35,669 bases of DNA, from IMG/VR virus record IMGVR_UViG_3300020735_000031, positions 1 through 35,669 of that record; one strand, 5' to 3'. This document shows positions 10,734 through 29,120 of the stretch, piece by piece. Positions within the stretch are counted from its first letter, which is position 1. Every line of letters starts with the position of its first letter. Source of the DNA: a virus. The position numbers were made by a program, and so were the translations under genes. The notes below the pieces were generated by a model. It made no database searches and had not been told where the DNA came from. It saw only the letters and a list, made by a program, of their open reading frames with translations.

Positions 10734-10887
10734 TGCAGGTAAGGGAGATAAACAACGTCCCACAGATAATAAGAAATATAGTGAAAACTATGATATGATA
10801 TTTGGTAATAAAACACAAAGACTACCGCAAGTAGCCACTACGCCTGTCATAGAGCAAAAACCATACAAAATAGGCGAAAATAAATGA
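10726..10887 (+). CDS. Small GKGDKQRPTD-motif protein (53 aa)
   Basis: MNNAGKGDKQRPTDNKKYSE followed by NYDMIFG matches a short uncharacterised protein widespread in phages (GKGDK.RPTD...Y..NYD.IFG). It overlaps the gene before (stop 10733) and the large terminase start (ATGA, 10884-10887), so it is translated in series with both. It is under 60 residues. The conserved half is N-terminal; the tail is Pro/Thr-rich. Function is unknown; linkage to packaging genes is what can be said. Confidence 0.75.
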   Translation: MNNAGKGDKQRPTDNKKYSENYDMIFGNKTQRLPQVATTPVIEQKPYKIGENK

Positions 10888-12344
10888 GTATCGTTAAGTT
10901 ATCGCGGGATGAACAAATAGAACTTCTTATGCTAAAACAAGTGCAAGCAGGAAGAGTTGCAAAGACCAAGATTGATTATTGCTTTCCGGATAAAGGACCT
11001 CGTAGCCGCGACAAGTATCAAAAGCAGATGAACTTCTTTAAGGCTGGTGCAACACATAAGCAAAGACTGTTTATGGCTGCTAATCGCGTTGGTAAAAGTT
11101 TCGGTTTTGGATGCGAACTTACCTATCACTTAACAGGATTGTATCCAAAGTGGTGGATAGGCAAACGTTTCAAAGATGCATCAGAGTGGTGGTGCTGTGG
11201 TGTCAATGCACGAGACGTCAAAGTAGTTTTACAAGATTTATTACTTGGAAGGGTAGGCGAGTTCGGTGAAGGTCTTATTCCATATGCTTGTTTAGATCGC
11301 GAGACAATGAAAGAAGCCCAACGAATGGAGACCCCAATCAACTCCTTTCGTGTTAAGCACGTTAGTGGTGCTTGGTCTACTGTGGAATTCAAAACGTATG
11401 AACAAGGCAGAGCATCCTTTCAAGGAACTGCACGTTCAATCTGGTTGGATGAAGAATGTCCCGAGGATATCTATGCGGAGTGCTTTACACGAACACTCAC
11501 TGGTGGCAATATACTTGTAATGACTTTCACACCACTCAAAGGCCCTACACCACTTATTACAAACTTCTTAGGTGATACAAGTGTAGCCGATATTGTTGAT
11601 GGCCCTATTGATGTGCATAGACACGTGACAACTTGCACCTGGGATGATATTCCGCATATGAGCGAAGATGATAAAGCAGCAGCTATTGCATCCTATGCTC
11701 CGCATCAACGTGATGCACGATCCAAAGGTATTCCAGCATTAGGCTCCGGTGTTATCTATCCTGTTCCATTAAGTGATTATGTGGTTGTTCCTATAGACAT
11801 TCCTAAACATTGGAAACGCTGTTTTGGTATGGATGTGGGTAATAAAACCGCCGCTGTATGGATCGCGACTGATCCTGACGCTAAAATCACCTATGTGTAT
11901 GCAGATTACTATAAAGAACGAGCCGAGCCAGTGATACACGCAGCAGGTATTAAAGCCCGAGGCGAATGGATTCCTGGTGCGATTGATCCAGCCTCGCGTG
12001 GGCGCAGCCAAATAGATGGTAAAGCCCTTATGGATATGTATAAGGACAATGGATTAAAAGTAGTTCCTGCTATCAATGCAGTAGAAACAGGCTTATATGA
12101 AGTGTGGGAAGCATTGAGCACAGGCAAGTTAAAAGTATTCAACTCCTGTTTGCAACTCCTACGCGAGATACAAACATATATGCGTGATGAAAAAGGCAAC
12201 GTGGTAAAGAAGAATGACCACGTTATGGATGCTTTTAGATATGCTTATATGACACGTGACATTGCAGATACCGAAATGGGTGCCAAGCCTACAAACTACG
12301 AATATGGTGTAGTCAGCCAAAACTATAGAGCATCAAGATACTAA
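10884..12344 (+). CDS. terL: Terminase large subunit (486 aa)
   Basis: This is the ATP-driven DNA packaging motor and headful/site nuclease. The ATPase domain shows Walker A AANRVGKS (65-72), Walker B with catalytic Glu SIWLDEE (185-191) and the coupling motif VMTFTPLKG (212-220). The RNase H-like nuclease domain shows GMDVGN (Asp 317), AIDPA (Asp 368) and NDHVMDAFRYA (Asp 449), a complete metal-binding triad. The length is normal for the Terminase_6 type. It starts inside the stop of the preceding small gene (ATGA). All key residues are present, so it should be active. Confidence 0.95.
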   Translation: MSIVKLSRDEQIELLMLKQVQAGRVAKTKIDYCFPDKGPRSRDKYQKQMNFFKAGATHKQRLFMAANRVGKSFGFGCELTYHLTGLYPKWWIGKRFKDASEWWCCGVNARDVKVVLQDLLLGRVGEFGEGLIPYACLDRETMKEAQRMETPINSFRVKHVSGAWSTVEFKTYEQGRASFQGTARSIWLDEECPEDIYAECFTRTLTGGNILVMTFTPLKGPTPLITNFLGDTSVADIVDGPIDVHRHVTTCTWDDIPHMSEDDKAAAIASYAPHQRDARSKGIPALGSGVIYPVPLSDYVVVPIDIPKHWKRCFGMDVGNKTAAVWIATDPDAKITYVYADYYKERAEPVIHAAGIKARGEWIPGAIDPASRGRSQIDGKALMDMYKDNGLKVVPAINAVETGLYEVWEALSTGKLKVFNSCLQLLREIQTYMRDEKGNVVKKNDHVMDAFRYAYMTRDIADTEMGAKPTNYEYGVVSQNYRASRY

Positions 12345-12345
12345 T

Positions 12346-12540
12346 ATGACTACTGAATATGACACATTTAGGGCATTAGTTGACCCACATTGGAAAGATG
12401 CAGCATTTGTTGCTAACTTGTATACAAAAGCACGCATTTACAATGGTCACCACCAATACAAAACATTATGCAATAACTATGGTTTGAGCATAGAGCAAGT
12501 TCTACAATATAAAAGGATACAATATGAAACACGATTTTAA
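12346..12540 (+). CDS. Hypothetical protein after the large terminase (64 aa)
   Basis: It starts two bases after the terminase stop with no strong ribosome site, so it is probably coupled to it. The sequence (HWKDAAFVANLYTKARIYNG, then YGLSIEQVLQYKRIQYETRF) is helical, possibly a small helix-turn-helix-like fold. It overlaps the co-chaperonin-like gene by 17 bases. Function is not recognised. Confidence 0.6.
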   Translation: MTTEYDTFRALVDPHWKDAAFVANLYTKARIYNGHHQYKTLCNNYGLSIEQVLQYKRIQYETRF

Positions 12541-13084
12541 ATGCACAACAACCAATGTGATATTCAAGTGGCCCGAAGCCAAAGAACGAAAAGTGGGTAT
12601 AATACATTTACTAAATGATTTAAGTAAAGAAGTAGGTTGGGCTGATTGTATTGAAACAGGTCCAGAAAGCATTTTAAAACCCGGTGATAAACTCTTAATA
12701 AGCAAAAGGATAACAACAATGGATCTAATGATTGATAATGTGACATATAATAATACAAGTGATTTAAGCGTAATAGGATACAAGCGTAAAGATGTTCTAA
12801 GTTGCACTGGTGGCACTTTTTTATATGAATACATTACAAACCCTGGTGAAACTGTAACCGAAAGCGGCATCATTGTTATTAAGAAAACTTCCACTAAGGA
12901 ATTCGAACCTATTTGGGTAAAAGTTGTGGCTTGTGGACCAACAAGTGGTGTTCAACCAGGAGATGAAATACTTATAGCATACAAATCGGATTGTTATTCA
13001 ATACCTTATTTTGATGGCAAAGAACTTCACAATGCAGGTAAAGAAGAAATAATCTGCTATAGAACTCCTACAAAAACTTGCTAA
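12524..13084 (+). CDS. Tandem GroES-like co-chaperonin (186 aa)
   Basis: The second half reads as a GroES/Cpn10 fold: a mobile-loop-like segment ETVTESGIIVIKK (109-121, close to VTESGLIIGK of T4 gp31), then WVKVVACGPTSGVQPGDEIL (131-150) and a closing strand EEIICY. The first half repeats the pattern in reduced form: GIIHLLNDL, then DCIETGPESILKPGDKLLIS (41-60). Two Cpn10-like halves in one chain are unusual. Phage co-chaperonins of this fold pair with host GroEL to fold capsid protein, and the gene lies between terminase and portal with a good AAGGA site. The coat here is P22-type; P22 coat is a known GroEL client. The fold is inferred from motif order, not from a search. Confidence 0.65.
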   Translation: MKHDFKCTTTNVIFKWPEAKERKVGIIHLLNDLSKEVGWADCIETGPESILKPGDKLLISKRITTMDLMIDNVTYNNTSDLSVIGYKRKDVLSCTGGTFLYEYITNPGETVTESGIIVIKKTSTKEFEPIWVKVVACGPTSGVQPGDEILIAYKSDCYSIPYFDGKELHNAGKEEIICYRTPTKTC

Positions 13085-13109: not shown

Positions 13110-15278
13110 ATGATAAACAGTAAAGACATAATGAAGCTTGCCAAAAAGCGATACCAATATTGCGAAACGCAGTGGTCCGAAATGAAACAAAGAAGCACAG
13201 AACTCCTACAGTTTATTGAAGGCAGCGGACAATGGACATATACTGCACGCCAAAACTTCGAAAACGCAGGCTTTGCTGCTTTAACATCCAATCGTATTCC
13301 TACTTTCTTACGCCAGATTACAAACGAGATTCGTAAAAATCCTCCTGAGATTAAGATCGATCCTCGCAGTGATGATGAGCAACAAAAAGCTGAAATGCTT
13401 AATGATCTGCTTAGAAATATTCAAGAAGAATCCCAAGCCGAGATTGCATATTGCACTGCTGCTGAAAGTGCAGCAAGTGTAGGTATTGGTTATATTCGCG
13501 TAATGAGTCAATACAAAGACGAAAAGAGTTTTGATCAAGAAATAACTATCGAACCTATTCAAGATGTAAACACAGTGATGATGGATCCTAATCACAAATC
13601 ATTAGATGGCAGCGATTCCGAATATGTGTTTATTACTACTACAATATCTAAAGATGAATACTATCAGCGGTATGGTGATAGCGCATTGGGTAGATTGATT
13701 GACGGTTCAATGGACGAAAAAGAGATGAAGGAAATCGGTTGGACTGCTGCCGGAACTAAGTGGACAACCGAGGATCAAGTCCTTATTAATGAATATTACT
13801 TTAAGGATTATAAACCAACAACGATTTATCAAATACAAGATATTGTAACTGGCCAAGTTTCTATTACTCGTGACAAAGGTCTTGCATCATCAAAATCGGT
13901 AGAACTAATACAAGAACGCGAGATTATGCAACCAGTTGTTAGATGGTGCAAACTAAATGATATTGAAGTATTAGAAGAGAGCGAATGGCCAGGCGAACAC
14001 ATTCCAGTTATTGCAGTCAAAGGCGACGAATATTGGATCGAAGGCAAGCGCAAGTTGGTTGGCGCAGTTGAACCTGCGATTGATGCCCAAGTCCAGTTGA
14101 ACTATGCAATGAGTTGGAGAGCACAGTTGCTACAAATGGCTCCTAAGGCTCCTTATATTGGAACAGCAGCACAGTTCAAAACTTATGAACAGCAATGGGC
14201 AAATATCAATGTAAGCAACCAAGCATTTATGGTTTATAATAGTGATCAAGGTGCACCACCTCCAAGTAGAGATTTAGGTGAAGTGCCTATTCAAGGAGCC
14301 AGCACATTAGTTAGGGAAGCAGAAGATAATCTAAAGAGTATCTTTGGAACATTTGATCCAAGCCAATCACAAGCCGCCCCAGAAAGTGGCAAGGCATTAT
14401 TGGCACGTCAAGACCAATCCTATAATAGTAACTATCATTTCTATAATAATCTTGCAAGAAGTATTCAACAAGTTGGCTGTATTATTGTAGATGCTGTCCC
14501 AGTTATCTATGATAGCGCTCGCGATGTGCAAATCAAATCCCAAGATGGTAAGAAACGCTCAGTAAGTATCAATCAACCTGATGAAAGCGGAGTTATTGAG
14601 TTTGATTTAACTGCTGGCGATTATAGTGTATGCATTCAAACTGGACCAAGTTTTGGAACTAAAAGACAAGAATCCACTGATGCTATTATGTCATTGATAG
14701 CCGTTTATCCACAATCTGCTATAGCAATATCCGATATTGCTGTTCGTAATATGGATTGGCCAGGCGCTGATAAGATTGCTGATAGTTTAGAAGCAATGGT
14801 TCCTCCAGAAGTATTACAGGCTCGCAAGACAAATCCAAAAGATGCAGCAGCAATGGTTCCTCAACTTCAATCACAAGTTGCAGCCCTTACACAGCAAAAT
14901 CAAGTTCTTACCCAACACGTTCAACAAGCAACACAAAAGCTTCAAGAAGGCGCCGATAAGATTAAGATTGAACATATGAAGGCCGATGTTGATATGCATA
15001 AGATTGATCAAGAAAATCTTATTAAGATGCGTGAACTTAAGATGGATGAAGAGAAAGCTGTTTTAGAATATCGTATTAAGAAACGCGAACTCGAGATTGC
15101 CGAAGCCCAGTTAGAGTTAGAAAAAGCCCAACTTGGTATTAAGGGTGTTCAAGTAATGGCAAATATCAATGATAATATTCACGACAGACACGTGGATCAT
15201 ATTGCGAGAATCAATCCACTTGAGTTAAAGAATGAAACAGATGATAATGCAAGTGGATTTAGTGGTTCCACACTTTAA
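13110..15278 (+). CDS. P22-like portal protein (722 aa)
   Basis: The dodecameric portal forms the DNA channel at one capsid vertex and docks the terminase. Length (722) is almost that of P22 portal (725). The N-terminal region (YCETQWSEMKQRSTELLQFI, then SNRIPTFLRQITNEIRKNPP) is typical of the P22-portal family. The C-terminal ~130 residues are a long coiled coil (QVAALTQQNQVLTQHVQQAT and then Lys/Glu heptads), corresponding to the helical barrel that extends into the P22 head. The order terminase, portal, scaffold, coat follows P22. The ribosome site is ACGGAG. Confidence 0.92.
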   Translation: MINSKDIMKLAKKRYQYCETQWSEMKQRSTELLQFIEGSGQWTYTARQNFENAGFAALTSNRIPTFLRQITNEIRKNPPEIKIDPRSDDEQQKAEMLNDLLRNIQEESQAEIAYCTAAESAASVGIGYIRVMSQYKDEKSFDQEITIEPIQDVNTVMMDPNHKSLDGSDSEYVFITTTISKDEYYQRYGDSALGRLIDGSMDEKEMKEIGWTAAGTKWTTEDQVLINEYYFKDYKPTTIYQIQDIVTGQVSITRDKGLASSKSVELIQEREIMQPVVRWCKLNDIEVLEESEWPGEHIPVIAVKGDEYWIEGKRKLVGAVEPAIDAQVQLNYAMSWRAQLLQMAPKAPYIGTAAQFKTYEQQWANINVSNQAFMVYNSDQGAPPPSRDLGEVPIQGASTLVREAEDNLKSIFGTFDPSQSQAAPESGKALLARQDQSYNSNYHFYNNLARSIQQVGCIIVDAVPVIYDSARDVQIKSQDGKKRSVSINQPDESGVIEFDLTAGDYSVCIQTGPSFGTKRQESTDAIMSLIAVYPQSAIAISDIAVRNMDWPGADKIADSLEAMVPPEVLQARKTNPKDAAAMVPQLQSQVAALTQQNQVLTQHVQQATQKLQEGADKIKIEHMKADVDMHKIDQENLIKMRELKMDEEKAVLEYRIKKRELEIAEAQLELEKAQLGIKGVQVMANINDNIHDRHVDHIARINPLELKNETDDNASGFSGSTL

Positions 15279-15334: not shown

Positions 15335-15359
15335 ACATACAATCAAAGGATTGGCAACA

Positions 15360-16250
15360 ATGGTAGAAAACCAAAATAGTTCCTCCGTAATGGAGACAAA
15401 TACTGCGCCTGAACAAGAAAACTTGACTTTAGGTGAGAAGGACAATAGTTCTATTACAGAATCAGAAGCTGTAGAAAATGATGTAGAAGGCACTGAATCT
15501 ACATCAACCGCAAAGGACATTGCTGGTGAAGATAATAGTGATACGAATGACGAAGATAGTGAAGATAGCGAAAGTAAGAAGTCAGGAAAAGGTTTCGAAA
15601 AACGTATTGAGCGCTTTAATCGTAGGCTTGCTGAAAAGGAAGCAGAGATTGAACATTGGCGTAAAGCAGCATTACAAAGTGGTAATCAATCCACACCGCA
15701 ATCACAAGTTGCCCCAGTTATGCAAACTGAAAAACCAAAGTTTAGCGACTTTAATGATATCGATGCATATACTGATGCAGTAACTGATTGGAAGTTAGAA
15801 CAACGCGAGGCAGCACAAAGGCTGACAAACGCTCAACAAACTTACAAACAGAGAGAAGATGTAGTTAGAAAGGCTCACGCCGATTATGACGAAGTATCTG
15901 CAGACTTTAGAGATAGATACAAGCACGTTAGTGCTCCAGAGTTTAACGCATTCATAAATGATAGCGACTTAGGCCCTGAAATGTGGTATCATCTTGCTAA
16001 TAACACTACCGAAGTTGATCGTATTCTTGCATTAAGTCCAATACGCAGAGTTGCAGAACTTGGCAAGTTGGAAGCAAAGTTATCTACTGTAGGTTCAGTG
16101 GATACTAAAGTTGTAAACAAAGTTAGCAAGGCACCCAAACCAGTAACAAAAGAAACTGGAGTTGCCCCGCGTCAGAAACGTTTAGATGATCCAAATCTAT
16201 CCCAAAGCGAATGGCGCGAACTTCGAATGCAAACTAAAAGAAGATTTTAA
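15360..16250 (+). CDS. P22-like scaffolding protein (296 aa)
   Basis: ATG 15360 is nine bases after AGGA; the TTG at 15351 abuts that site and is unlikely. Length matches P22 scaffold (303). The first ~80 residues are acidic and disordered (Ser/Glu/Asp-rich). A coiled coil follows (KRIERFNRRLAEKEAEIEHW), then a helical region and a basic C-terminus (PRQKRL to MQTKRRF), the coat-binding end in P22 scaffolds. It lies between portal and coat. It directs procapsid assembly and leaves before or during packaging. Confidence 0.85.
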   Translation: MVENQNSSSVMETNTAPEQENLTLGEKDNSSITESEAVENDVEGTESTSTAKDIAGEDNSDTNDEDSEDSESKKSGKGFEKRIERFNRRLAEKEAEIEHWRKAALQSGNQSTPQSQVAPVMQTEKPKFSDFNDIDAYTDAVTDWKLEQREAAQRLTNAQQTYKQREDVVRKAHADYDEVSADFRDRYKHVSAPEFNAFINDSDLGPEMWYHLANNTTEVDRILALSPIRRVAELGKLEAKLSTVGSVDTKVVNKVSKAPKPVTKETGVAPRQKRLDDPNLSQSEWRELRMQTKRRF

Positions 16251-16527: not shown

Positions 16528-17772
16528 TTGACAGCAAATACTTTACTAACTATTTCTATGATATCTCGCGATGCTGCTATGGTTTTAGGCAACACTTTGG
16601 ATCTTGCAAAGCGCGTTAATCGTGACTTTGATTCTGATTTTGGTGTTAAATCCGCTCAAATCGGCCAAACAATCAATGTTCGCCGTCCGATCCGCCCAAC
16701 AGTGCGTACCGGTTCTGTAGTTGATATCCAATCAATCACAGAAACATATAGCCCACTTAGCTTTACCAACCCAGTTGGAACTGACTATGCATTAACAAGC
16801 CAAGAATTGACTTTCTCCGTGGAAGATTATTTTGATAAGGTTGTTGAGCCATCCGTGACTCGCATTGCATCTGAAATCGAATCACAAGGTCAAGCACTTA
16901 TCACTAAGTTCTATGGCGCTGTAGGAACACCAGGCACTGCTTTAACAGGTGGCGCATCTGGAACTGCACTTCCAGCAATCACAAAAGCACTTGCTTTGCT
17001 TAATAAGAACTTGGCTCCAAATGAAGGTGGTCGTAAGACATTACTTAATGATCCTGACTTCAATGGTGTTCTTGCTACATCCAACTTGACATACTTCCAC
17101 CCAGGCGCTGAAGTTTCCAAGATGTATACCAGCGGTTACCAAGGTGATTTCAGTTCTTTCCGTGTGTTTATGAACCAACTTGTTCAGTCTCACACAAACG
17201 GTGTTTATGGTGGTTCTCCTATTGTTGCTGCAACAGTTGGTGGAAACTCTACTTGGGGCACTTCATCTACATTAAGCACAAGTGGTTGGACTTCCGGCGC
17301 TACTACACTTAATGCTGGTGATATTTTCACTATTGCTGGTGTTTATATGGTAAATGCTCAGACAAAACAAACTATTGCAACACTACAACAGTTCGTAGTT
17401 ACAACAACCGTTTCGGATACTTCCGGCGCTATTGTTGCTTCTATTAGCCCAGCAGTAGTTACAGCAGGCGGATTCCAAAACGTTTCCCGTGCTCCTACTG
17501 TCAATGATGTTATTACTGTTCTTGGTGCTTCTGGTGCAGTCACACAAAACGCATTGGCTTTCGACCGTGATGCTATTATGCTTGCTGCTAAAGAACTAAT
17601 GCCTTACAGTGTTGGTTTAGGTAAGACTACAACCGATGATCAAACAAAGATCCCAGTTCGCGTTCAACAAATGCCTGACATTCGTACCAACCAAGAAATC
17701 CTACGTTTTGACGTAATGGTTGCTTGGGCACCGCTTTACGACCAGTTGGGCGTGCGCATCTGTACTAACTAA
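16528..17772 (+). CDS. Major capsid (coat) protein, P22 family (414 aa), TTG start
   Basis: The N-terminus TANTLLTISMISRDAAMVLG, then VNRDFD..FGVKSAQIGQTI and INVRRPIRPTVRTG, is characteristic of P22-coat-family proteins with the HK97 fold. A Thr/Ser-rich insertion near residues 225-335 (DIFTIAGVYMVNAQTKQTIA) corresponds to the I-domain-like beta insertion of that family. Length (414) is close to P22 coat (430). The start is TTG, 5-8 bases after an AAAGGGG site, with no in-frame ATG before residue 11, which is unusual for the most abundant virion protein. It follows the scaffold gene and a long leader. Confidence 0.93.
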   Translation: MTANTLLTISMISRDAAMVLGNTLDLAKRVNRDFDSDFGVKSAQIGQTINVRRPIRPTVRTGSVVDIQSITETYSPLSFTNPVGTDYALTSQELTFSVEDYFDKVVEPSVTRIASEIESQGQALITKFYGAVGTPGTALTGGASGTALPAITKALALLNKNLAPNEGGRKTLLNDPDFNGVLATSNLTYFHPGAEVSKMYTSGYQGDFSSFRVFMNQLVQSHTNGVYGGSPIVAATVGGNSTWGTSSTLSTSGWTSGATTLNAGDIFTIAGVYMVNAQTKQTIATLQQFVVTTTVSDTSGAIVASISPAVVTAGGFQNVSRAPTVNDVITVLGASGAVTQNALAFDRDAIMLAAKELMPYSVGLGKTTTDDQTKIPVRVQQMPDIRTNQEILRFDVMVAWAPLYDQLGVRICTN

Positions 17773-18936: not shown

Positions 18937-20511
18937 ATGGCAGGCCCAAATATTCAATCAAGCGATACATTAAAGATATTGGCAGGTAATCAGACAGGTA
19001 ACATCATCTTAGGAACATTAGAAGTTGATGGTGATACAACATTCAATACTGATGTGTTTATTTTAGGAACATTGACTGTTACTGATTTAACAACCGAACA
19101 ACAAAATATGCTTATTCAAGGCACATTAGAAGTTGATACCACATCGCATCTAATCGGCAAAGTAACGGCCAATGCTGGCGTGGAAATCACAGCAGGGGAT
19201 TTAGTATTAGATACTTCCAATATTGTTGTAACAGAAGGGAATATTACATCAACTGTAGGTAATGTGGTAGCAGGCAACTATATCACCGCAGGCAACTATA
19301 TCACCGCAGGAACTGATATTACTTCAACTACTGGCAACATTGCTGCTTCAAGTGGAAATGTAAGTGCGAGTGGAACAGTAACTGCTGGCACTTCTATTAG
19401 TGCAGGAACTTCTATTACTGCAGGAACTGATATTACTTCAACTACTGGCAACATTGCTGCTTCAAGTGGAAATGTAAGCGCAAGTGGTTCCACAAGTGGC
19501 AATACAGTTTATTCTGTAACAAGCACTACTGTAGGAAATACTTTAACTGTGACTGCTGGCAATCTTACTGTTACAGCAGGTAATATTAGCACGACTGCAG
19601 GTAGCATCAACGCCTATACTTCACTTGCTGCTGGCACGACTGTTACAGCAGGAACAGGTATCACAGCAACTACTGGAAACATTGCTGCATTAAGTGGAAA
19701 TGTCACTGCAAGTTCAGCAGTCACAGCAGGAACGACTATGACAGCCCAAAGTGGCATCACAGCAACTACTGGCAACATTGTTGCTTCAAGTGGAAATGTA
19801 AGTGCGAGTGGAACAGTAACAAGTGGCAGCACAATCACAGCTCAAAGTGGTTTTATTGCTACAACTGGCAACATCACAGCAACTACTGGAAATGTAAGTG
19901 CTAATGGAACAGTAACAAGTGGTAGTTCAATGACTGCCGGTGTTGGCATCACAGCAACTACCGGCAACATTGTTGCAAGTGCTGGAAATGTAAGTGCTAA
20001 TACTTCAGTAGGAGCAGGAACAACAGTAACTGCTGGCACTTCTATTAGTGCAGGAACAACAGTAACTGCTGGCACTGGCATCACAGCAACTACTGGCAAC
20101 ATTGCTGCTTCAAGTGGAAATGTAAGCGCAAGTTCCGCAATAACTGCTGGCACTTCTGTAACGGCTGGCACAGGTATCACAGCAACCACCGGAAACATTG
20201 TTGCTTCAAGTGGCAACTTATCAGCAAGCGGAACAGTAACTGCTGGCACAAGTGTTACAACTCCAATCGTTCGAGTAGGAGCATCAACTGCATTCCAAAT
20301 CGATCAAAATGCCACACAGATTATTGGATTTGATACAAATGGATATCTTACAGTAGGAGCAACCGGCAGCAGATTAGGTTTCTATGGAGTTAATCCGGTT
20401 GTTAAGGCAGCGGCTATCACACAGATAACGAATTCTGCAACAGGAACACAAATAGCAACTGCGGTAAATGCGATTATTGTTGCATTGCAGAATATGGGTA
20501 TCACCTCTTAA
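18937..20511 (+). CDS. Repeat-rich virion fibre (524 aa)
   Basis: After a ~60-residue N-terminal domain, most of the protein is built of TAGTxITATTGNIAASSGNV-type repeats in Thr/Gly/Ala/Ser, as expected for a parallel beta-helix or beta-prism shaft. The C-terminal ~80 residues (FQIDQNATQIIGFDTNGYLT, RLGFYGVNPVVKAAAIT) form a fibre-tip/trimerisation module shared with the 65-aa protein at 17811. It sits between gp4-like and gp10-like genes, so it is a virion protein, perhaps a head or neck fibre. The ribosome site is AGGAG. Reverse-strand ORFs here are by-products of the repeats. Confidence 0.8.
   Translation: MAGPNIQSSDTLKILAGNQTGNIILGTLEVDGDTTFNTDVFILGTLTVTDLTTEQQNMLIQGTLEVDTTSHLIGKVTANAGVEITAGDLVLDTSNIVVTEGNITSTVGNVVAGNYITAGNYITAGTDITSTTGNIAASSGNVSASGTVTAGTSISAGTSITAGTDITSTTGNIAASSGNVSASGSTSGNTVYSVTSTTVGNTLTVTAGNLTVTAGNISTTAGSINAYTSLAAGTTVTAGTGITATTGNIAALSGNVTASSAVTAGTTMTAQSGITATTGNIVASSGNVSASGTVTSGSTITAQSGFIATTGNITATTGNVSANGTVTSGSSMTAGVGITATTGNIVASAGNVSANTSVGAGTTVTAGTSISAGTTVTAGTGITATTGNIAASSGNVSASSAITAGTSVTAGTGITATTGNIVASSGNLSASGTVTAGTSVTTPIVRVGASTAFQIDQNATQIIGFDTNGYLTVGATGSRLGFYGVNPVVKAAAITQITNSATGTQIATAVNAIIVALQNMGITS
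19272..20260 (+). repeat. In-gene tandem and dispersed repeats of the fibre shaft
   Basis: Identical 58-base copies lie at 19307-19364 and 19421-19478 (offset 114 bases, 38 codons). A separate 18-base unit is tandemly duplicated from 19272 (CAGGCAACTATATCACCG twice). Shorter matches such as GGAAATGTAAGTG recur through about 20260. All offsets noted are multiples of three, so unequal recombination could change shaft length without breaking the frame. Confidence 0.8.
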
Positions 20512-27110: not shown

Positions 27111-29120
27111 ATGACAATATCAACTTTAGGCATTAGTTTTACACCAAGTGCTCCACTTGCACAAGAAGCAGTGCAGTTTACTGGATTGTGGACAGGCAAT
27201 GCAGCACCAACAAGTTGGCTCTGGGATTTTGGAGATGGCAGCACATCGACATTACAAAATCCAAAACACAAATATCTATCAAGCGGATCAATGCAGATAA
27301 CATTATCCGCGTCAGGTGAGATATTTGGCGACCTTACAGCAGGCCCTGAGTTTCTTAATATAATAAGAATATTACCATATAATCAACCTATGCCGTGGGC
27401 TGGAATGCAATTCAAAGATAATGATGGCGTTCCTCTTAGCAATGGATGGGTATATTCGTATGGCGCAAATGGATATCAACCACAGGTATTACGTCCTACA
27501 TATTCGGATGATGGCCATATACTGCCAAATCCATATCCATTAGATGTGGGTGGTAGAATGATACTTGATGATTTACATTCAACAGCAGATATGACTATTA
27601 GTTGGCCATATCACTTTGTTGCGAAAACAAGTAATGGAACTGTCACACAAGAACTTAGTAATGTTTATGTTCCATTATATATGGAAGGCACAAATATTAG
27701 TTTTTCTACTCGCGATACTTCGGTAAATCAACTGCAAATAAACTCGACAACCACCGATCCACTCTTTGGTCAAGGCGATTCATATAACTATACAATAACT
27801 TCAGTTAATAACTCGGTATTTGATGGTGCACCTGGTGATACCTATAATATACAGTTGAATACACAGAAGACTAATAACAATCCTGTTATTGCGTGGGATA
27901 ATACTGCGAATGCTTTTAAGTTTCTATATGATGGCGCATACGAAGTTACAACAAATCTAACTTTTACTGCAAATACTTGGCCAGTGTCAACTGTAGTAGT
28001 CTATGGAAGTATATTGCAGCGAACAATAGATACTGAACCAGTTAATATCAGTTATGATAGCAGTTATAACACAGACAGTCTTAGTAAATCTCTTACTGAT
28101 ACTTTTTGCGTAAGTGCTCTTAAAGATCAACATATGGCAATGAAATATTATGCTATTGGCACAGATAGTTCAGATGTATATTCAATGGCCGGATCTATAA
28201 CTATAACGCGAATAGGCGATTGGTTTTCGCAGATTGTTGAACCACCAGTGAGTATGTTTACAGAAATGCCAACAAGTGGTAGAGTGCCACTTGTTGTTAC
28301 ATTCACTGATACTTCTACAAATAATCCAACAAGTTGGTTATGGGACTTTGGCGATGGTGGCACTTCTACCGATCAAAATCCGACTTACACATATTATAAT
28401 ATTGGTAGTTACAATGTAACACTTATTGCAAGTAATAGATATGGATCAGGAACTCCTTATATATTGCCTGTAAATGCAACTGCATATCCATCTAATAATA
28501 GTTATAACTTATGGCTAATAGATGATACTGGCACTAATATTGGTATTGTATATTTTACACCAACATATGAAATAACAGAACCATATGTAGAAGCACTATG
28601 CTCCTTATTAAATGGTTATCCGTGGCCACAAGAAGGTGGTTCTCCAATGGCATTCTTTAATAATCCGCCAGAGCCAGAATCAGCAACGACACTAATGAAT
28701 ACTGGTCACAACTTATTCTATCAAGATAATCAATATGTTTATGGTCGAACTTTATATTTGCAACTTGCTCCGGCATATAATCCACCAGTATGGTCTTTTG
28801 CGTATGATGTTGCATATACAAACAATGCAGATCAACAAACAGAGAATATAGAATTTTATGTAGATGAAGGCCAAACTATTGTATGTGGCACACAAGGACT
28901 AATGGGTGTAAAAGCAACAGGTAATACATTTATTCGATTATTTGATCCGGCTGGCAATAATATCATATCAAATGATGATGCTCCGGCTCCATACAACTAT
29001 CCAAACGAATATGCATCGTGGTTGACAACAGTTGCTTTAACAAGTGGCAACTATGTGTTGAAAGTTGGTGCATTCGCAATGACAAGAGCTTATGGTATTG
29101 CAGGCGTTCAAGTATTTTAA
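27111..29120 (+). CDS. Multidomain fibre/spike with two PKD domains (669 aa)
   Basis: Order: PKD domain (~5-68, WLWDFGDG at 36-43); a phage fibre head-binding-like domain (~93-190, MPWAGMQFKDNDGVPLSNGW then DVGGRMILDD); a C1q-like beta domain (~225-368, ending SITITRIG); a second PKD domain (~378-448, WLWDFGDG at 409-416); and a C-terminal jelly-roll/PPC-like region (~560-669, GNTFIRLFDPAGNNIISNDD). The middle two domains match the whole of the next gene's product. PKD and PPC domains usually mediate protein or polysaccharide contact. It is probably a surface fibre or spike. The PPC call is weaker than the PKD calls. Confidence 0.75.
   Translation: MTISTLGISFTPSAPLAQEAVQFTGLWTGNAAPTSWLWDFGDGSTSTLQNPKHKYLSSGSMQITLSASGEIFGDLTAGPEFLNIIRILPYNQPMPWAGMQFKDNDGVPLSNGWVYSYGANGYQPQVLRPTYSDDGHILPNPYPLDVGGRMILDDLHSTADMTISWPYHFVAKTSNGTVTQELSNVYVPLYMEGTNISFSTRDTSVNQLQINSTTTDPLFGQGDSYNYTITSVNNSVFDGAPGDTYNIQLNTQKTNNNPVIAWDNTANAFKFLYDGAYEVTTNLTFTANTWPVSTVVVYGSILQRTIDTEPVNISYDSSYNTDSLSKSLTDTFCVSALKDQHMAMKYYAIGTDSSDVYSMAGSITITRIGDWFSQIVEPPVSMFTEMPTSGRVPLVVTFTDTSTNNPTSWLWDFGDGGTSTDQNPTYTYYNIGSYNVTLIASNRYGSGTPYILPVNATAYPSNNSYNLWLIDDTGTNIGIVYFTPTYEITEPYVEALCSLLNGYPWPQEGGSPMAFFNNPPEPESATTLMNTGHNLFYQDNQYVYGRTLYLQLAPAYNPPVWSFAYDVAYTNNADQQTENIEFYVDEGQTIVCGTQGLMGVKATGNTFIRLFDPAGNNIISNDDAPAPYNYPNEYASWLTTVALTSGNYVLKVGAFAMTRAYGIAGVQVF

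Follow-up and report, generated by a model that had tools for sequence, protein, structure and literature searches.

A tandem Cpn10-like co-chaperonin gene between the terminase and portal genes of a P22-like phage

Gene setting and internal repeat

The virus record analysed here, hereafter the window, is 35,669 bases long and has a P22-like make-up. Its plus strand carries genes for the terminase large subunit (10884–12344; phrog_2, E 2.1e-31), a P22-like portal protein (13110–15278; PF16510, E 3.4e-132), a scaffolding protein (15351–16250; phrog_8865, E 9.8e-34) and a P22-like coat protein of 414 aminoacids (16528–17772; PF11651, E 1.3e-21), the last being the putative folding client. Two open reading frames, also on the plus strand, occupy the interval between terminase and portal. 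The first, taken from the list of open frames, encodes 64 aminoacids (12346–12540) and gave no significant match in a family profile search. Its end overlaps by 17 bases the start of the second, which begins with ATG, encodes a tandem Cpn10-like (GroES-like) co-chaperonin of 186 aminoacids (12524–13084) and is preceded on the same strand by a sequence resembling a ribosome-binding site (AAAAGGA, 12511–12517). The original prediction placed a tandem GroES-like gene between the terminase and portal of a P22-like phage; the open frame at 12524–13084, its internal repeat and its matches to Cpn10 profiles and folds bear this out.

The tandem repeat is established by comparison of the two halves. 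Residues 7–87 (first domain, 12542–12784, plus strand) and 94–180 (second domain, 12803–13063, plus strand) align end to end, and 21 of the 81 residue pairs are identical. The Smith-Waterman score is 65 (63–66 across five cut points), against a shuffle maximum of 50–55, and at each of the five cut points it was equalled by none of 5000 double shuffles. This corresponds to a Gumbel p of about 4e-6 (3.5e-6 to 7.7e-6 over the five cut points). When 20 other window proteins were split mid-way as a control, two gave p < 1e-4 (18937–20511 and 27111–29120).

Half 1 contains the motifs GIIHLL and LKPGDKLLIS, and half 2 contains VTESGIIVIKK and VQPGDEILI, all as quoted in advance. Between the halves, the Gly-Ile-Ile of the loop, a Trp, the GP, the PGD and the LI after PGD are in register. 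The mobile-loop-like segment of domain 1 (residues 18–38, GIIHLL; 12575–12637, plus strand) was placed by its aligned position, with the lowest pLDDT of the model (63–67) at residues 21–40, and that of domain 2 (residues 108–127, SGIIVI; 12845–12904, plus strand) by aligned position. Judged by sequence only, both halves have the glycine-hydrophobic motif of a GroEL-binding loop. The GP..PGD cores lie at residues 46–55 (12659–12688, plus strand) and 138–147 (12935–12964, plus strand). With six residues from GP to GD in each, both barrels seem to be without a roof hairpin.

The two control proteins with repeats are of some interest in themselves. The product of 18937–20511 has 524 aminoacids, with TAG/TTGNI-like repeats and a DNA period of 96 bases; it has no family match and is probably a beta-structured fibre. 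The product of 27111–29120 has 669 aminoacids, its halves are alike (Gumbel p 2e-7) and it has no PHROG match.

Relationship to Cpn10

The check proposed for the prediction, a search with the Pfam Cpn10 profile PF00166, failed. Half 2 reached 13.5 bits, where the cut-off is 21.1, the whole protein had no Cpn10 match at E 10, and a PF00166 search of G000 gave no match at E 1. Since the cut-off is missed, we file the protein as Cpn10-like and not as a Pfam member. An NCBIfam search with the protein also gave no match.

The relationship to Cpn10 and GroES is established by more sensitive or phage-specific profiles. In PHROGs, half 2 matches the phage GroES profile phrog_3188 with E 8.6e-5, and the same search also gave a head-morphogenesis family with E 0.012. 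Against a profile of 11 podophage Cpn10s each half is weak singly (prob 5.7 and 18.4), and each beat all 200 shuffles, half 1 narrowly (18.8 vs 18.2); together with the repeat, this indicates two Cpn10 domains in one chain. A profile built from both halves aligned to the podophage Cpn10s with an hhalign E of 3.4e-6 (prob 87.7), and its score of 30.4 was not approached in any of 300 column shuffles (maximum 16.9). The podophage profile itself is sound, recovering GroES and Cpn10 chains as well as each of the two domains in Chlamydomonas Cpn20 and Cpn23 (PDB 7ekq; 'Cr' in the PDB titles). In pairwise Smith-Waterman comparison with single Cpn10s, the best match of half 1 is out of register and was equalled by 7 of 500 shuffles, so we rely on the profiles and on the alignment of the halves. 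A tblastn search of phages with the window protein gave no match at E 0.01, and a search of genome contigs yielded no relative.

In terms of fold, AlphaFold2 modelled half 1 from a 16-sequence alignment as a Cpn10 barrel (pLDDT 82.9, pTM 0.72), the mobile loop and its surroundings being the least confident part. Foldseek and VIA both rank Cpn10, GroES and gp31 at the top for this model. In VIA, chains of these proteins fill the first 16 rows with Z of 7.3–10.3, the next fold reaching 5.4, and T4 gp31 is matched with Z of 7.8–8.0. As the alignment contained Cpn10s, the fold is support and not proof. Folded from its single sequence, the whole protein gave no usable fold (pLDDT 29.8). The proposed test by structure prediction, in which unrelated folds in both halves would have told against Cpn10, is thus answered favourably for half 1, the half that this fold result covers.

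Co-chaperonins of other podophages and origin of the tandem form

We surveyed 94 records with PF00166: that of the window itself, 77 that a search by portal had yielded and 16 that came from a search by terminase, leaving out the terminase loci L102–L115 and copies of the window's own phage. A Cpn10 above the Pfam cut-off is carried by at least 24 of the 77 portal-found records, a lower bound because many records are fragments, and by none of the 16 terminase-found ones. A custom profile, run on frames of at least 50 aminoacids, finds further Cpn10s, for example in L079. The commonest podophage type has 82 aminoacids. Among the best 80 of 181 Cpn10 loci, a P22-like portal follows the single-domain Cpn10 directly in 68 and lies 524–536 bases on in 4; the remaining 8 have no portal frame, possibly because the contigs end there. 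The setting is conserved. Two Cpn10 domains in one frame occur in none of these best 80 of 181, and the tandem form is unusual among P22-like podophage Cpn10 loci.

Some of these podophages are named, with genomes of about 37–40 kb. Phage DSL-LC05 has an annotated GroES (WJZ48174.1) followed by the portal, Xanthomonas phage PBR31 has one (orf017) shortly ahead of its terminase genes, and further examples come from two Manatee Spring genomes. In the main texts on PBR31 and DSL-LC05, a search by word turned up neither GroES nor a chaperonin. In HTVC023P-type pelagiphages, a GroES co-chaperonin is given as a core gene in a passage of PMC9599517. The view that phage co-chaperonins belong mainly to T4-like phages with larger genomes, part of the original prediction, has to be given up, single-domain Cpn10 being frequent next to the terminase or portal in P22-like podophages. 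These proteins resemble the window gene in standing before the portal or terminase in the same type of genome, and the commonest group is without the roof hairpin, as the window barrels seem to be. They differ in having one barrel of ~82–107 aminoacids that scores above the PF00166 cut-off.

Other open frames at this position proved to be something else. In EBPR podovirus 1, the frame that separates terminase and portal (L141, 6419–6763) is not Cpn10 and has a weak acetyltransferase match (phrog_3810, E 0.015), and that in Rhodoferax phage P26218 (L144, 3465–3857), also not Cpn10, matches profiles of unknown function only. From these two, the position looks like a variable accessory slot. A frame of 188 aminoacids behind the terminase in L100 is not Cpn10-like by eye. 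Many of the podophages with Cpn10 (L030, 511–783; L034, 781–1038; others) have a conserved basic protein of 85–90 aminoacids just behind the terminase, with the sequence MAKKGVSLSVGRGEKLP....

Next, Foldseek matches of 174–200 aminoacids pointed to gp096 of Cellulophaga phage phi18:3, a protein of 200 aminoacids annotated as GroES, encoded just before the terminase and belonging to phrog_13932. This longer co-chaperonin is found in 85 phage records (68 from Flavobacterium, 15 from Cellulophaga, 1 from Maribacter and 1 unnamed) and in 540 IMG/VR stretches, of which the best 80 formed our IMG/VR set (for one other search, the best 80 of 489). We kept the 90 loci with a frame of 150–240 aminoacids on the plus strand, and there the open frames have 180–206. 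The second half is clearly Cpn10 (hhalign E 1.9e-10) and the first is weaker (E 9.5e-5 and prob 58.7 with a broader Cpn10 set; prob 1.7 against a small set), so that these Bacteroidota co-chaperonins are likely tandem, to judge from the profiles. In the alignment, the second half is without a loop of normal length.

A separate single-domain Cpn10 above the Pfam cut-off was present in all 12 long-form records examined, a count that has no base rate beside it. These were six named phages and six contigs longer than 50 kb from among the best 80 of 540 (NC_021794, MT497078, PP540027, MT732432, KC821614, MW202828, L238, L240, L242, L263, L264 and L313). The entry 'chaperonin cpn10' appears among Pervagoviridae genes in a published table (a portion of PMC8776804).

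The long family (Elemovirus, Callevirus, Baltivirus phi18:3 and Maribacter phage Panino) is like the window gene in its length of 180–206 aminoacids and its position by terminase and portal. In contrast, its gene comes before the terminase, the genomes are of 60–77 kb, the second loop is shortened and a separate single Cpn10 is present in the 12 records examined. Its sequence resembles that of the window protein no more than single Cpn10s do. For common descent of the two, which we considered and judged less likely, the hhalign E is only 0.021, no better than for single Cpn10s.

As for the origin of the window protein, its halves score 65 against each other, but no higher than 48 against 26 single Cpn10s or 46 against 60 halves of 30 long-family proteins. 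A degenerate DNA pattern for GP[TE]S..[QK]PGD[EK].., which fits both halves by construction, has two matches in each of two IMG/VR copies of the phage and none elsewhere in the viral contigs. Because the halves are closest to each other and the pattern is confined to copies of this phage, duplication within its lineage appears more probable than an origin from the Bacteroidota family. The closeness of the halves, in this comparison of scores with single Cpn10s and long-family halves, would also favour a duplication separate from that of chloroplast Cpn20. We found no paper describing a tandem or double GroES in phages among the titles, abstract starts and passages searched in open-licence PMC, subscription journals lying outside this search.

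Proposed function and the lid ring

We consider it probable that the protein is a pair of head-to-tail Cpn10-like barrels, arisen by duplication in the phage lineage, that forms a lid for host GroEL and serves the folding of the coat protein first. A single-domain co-chaperonin, at the same place as in the P22-like relatives, would have been duplicated to give two Cpn10 beta-barrels in head-to-tail order with a linker of a few residues between them. Each barrel would carry a hydrophobic loop of the kind that binds the apical domain of GroEL, and be without the roof hairpin seen in host GroES. The tandem protein would then cap host GroEL, its two barrels adjacent to each other in the lid, and the capped GroEL would help phage proteins to fold, first among them the P22-like coat protein. 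GroEL binding, the client and the ring stoichiometry are points that we infer, the client from gp31 and from the position of the gene.

According to passages of PMC6318259 and PMC3012670, gp31 has no roof loops and makes with GroEL a roomier cage for T4 gp23. The window protein is similar to it as a phage co-chaperonin predicted to be without roof loops, and gp31 works with host GroEL on the coat protein (same passages). It differs in that gp31 is a single barrel, forms a homo-heptamer and comes from a T4-like phage.

A second known system, chloroplast Cpn20/Cpn21, shares the two head-to-tail Cpn10 domains and the problem of fitting them to seven-fold GroEL (PMC5780408, in part). According to that paper, Cpn20 concatemers of six or eight domains work, but the ring that forms natively is probably a heptamer of mixed composition. 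In PDB 7ekq, where the tandem chains have 194 and 212 aminoacids, two Cpn20 chains, one Cpn23 and one Cpn11 give seven domains, as summed from the chain counts. Cpn20 differs in that it is a plastid protein, both of its domains are clearly Cpn10 in sequence and its partner Cpn10 comes from the same organism, and there is no sequence sign that its duplication and that of the window share descent. The long and single Cpn10 together in Bacteroidota podophages (12 of 12) echo the chloroplast pair of Cpn20 and Cpn10.

With five profiles no second Cpn10 was found in the window, a record that may be incomplete. A host GroES would thus supply the seventh barrel, or the ring would have six or eight. 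The analogy with the chloroplast suggests a seven-barrel ring of three tandem chains and one single chain, here a host GroES, in preference to one that breaks the symmetry; six or eight barrels are the alternatives. An altered ring and a coat protein with special folding needs, as put forward originally, are plausible.

Among the other readings, the one we take most seriously, while still finding it unlikely, accepts the Cpn10 duplication and lets one barrel, probably the second, bind GroEL, the other being a spacer or a ring-packing element. The clearer loop (SGIIVI) and better profile match of half 2 speak for it, as does the second half without a normal-length loop in the Bacteroidota family; half 1, however, retains the glycine-hydrophobic loop GIIHLL at the aligned place. 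Less credible still is a use of the Cpn10-fold barrels away from GroEL, for instance in the structure or assembly of the phage head. The gene does lie in the head cluster beside the portal, and PDB 7ekq, which holds the Cpn20, Cpn23 and Cpn11 chains, is an entry of a Clp protease, so other partners are possible, but loops are kept in both halves and relatives have an intact single-domain GroES at the same position.

A duplicated small beta-barrel that is unrelated to Cpn10 and resembles it by convergence is very improbable. Such a protein would explain the weak single-sequence matches and the missed Pfam cut-off, as well as the PDB searches, in which neither the sequence of the window protein nor profiles of the halves (the two-half profile at E 10) found Cpn10. 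The phrog_3188 match, the shuffle-controlled profile-profile match, the predicted fold and the shared gene position all stand against it.

The 186-aminoacid protein is 100% identical in two other IMG/VR contigs, one of which, L002, agrees with the window at 99.8% along a stretch of 13.1 kb. An assembly artefact or chance fusion has nothing in its favour and next to no probability, and the former we regard as ruled out, given the same open frame in those contigs, halves only ~26% identical and hence not a duplicated read stretch, and a co-chaperonin gene that in contig L002 is DNA-identical to the window's while its coat gene differs at 23 silent places. The other genes compared between L002 and the window have 0–2 changes, against the 23 silent ones in the coat gene (16528–17772). 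Between nearly identical contigs, this hints at recombination at the coat gene.

What stands out here is the doubling of the co-chaperonin in a P22-like phage, single-domain ones being frequent in P22-like podophages. We offer only tentatively the wider idea that chloroplast-like tandem co-chaperonins evolved at least twice, in P22-like and in Bacteroidota podophages, and that mixed lids of three tandem chains and one single Cpn10, from the phage or from its host, fit seven-fold GroEL and so tune the chamber for the coat protein. The long and single Cpn10 pair in the Bacteroidota podophages (12 of 12 examined) is open to direct test. The tandem protein of this phage would offer a compact system for studying even-barrel lids on seven-fold GroEL, so far a question for the chloroplast and apicoplast, and phage control of host folding would be common in small podophages and not a speciality of T4.
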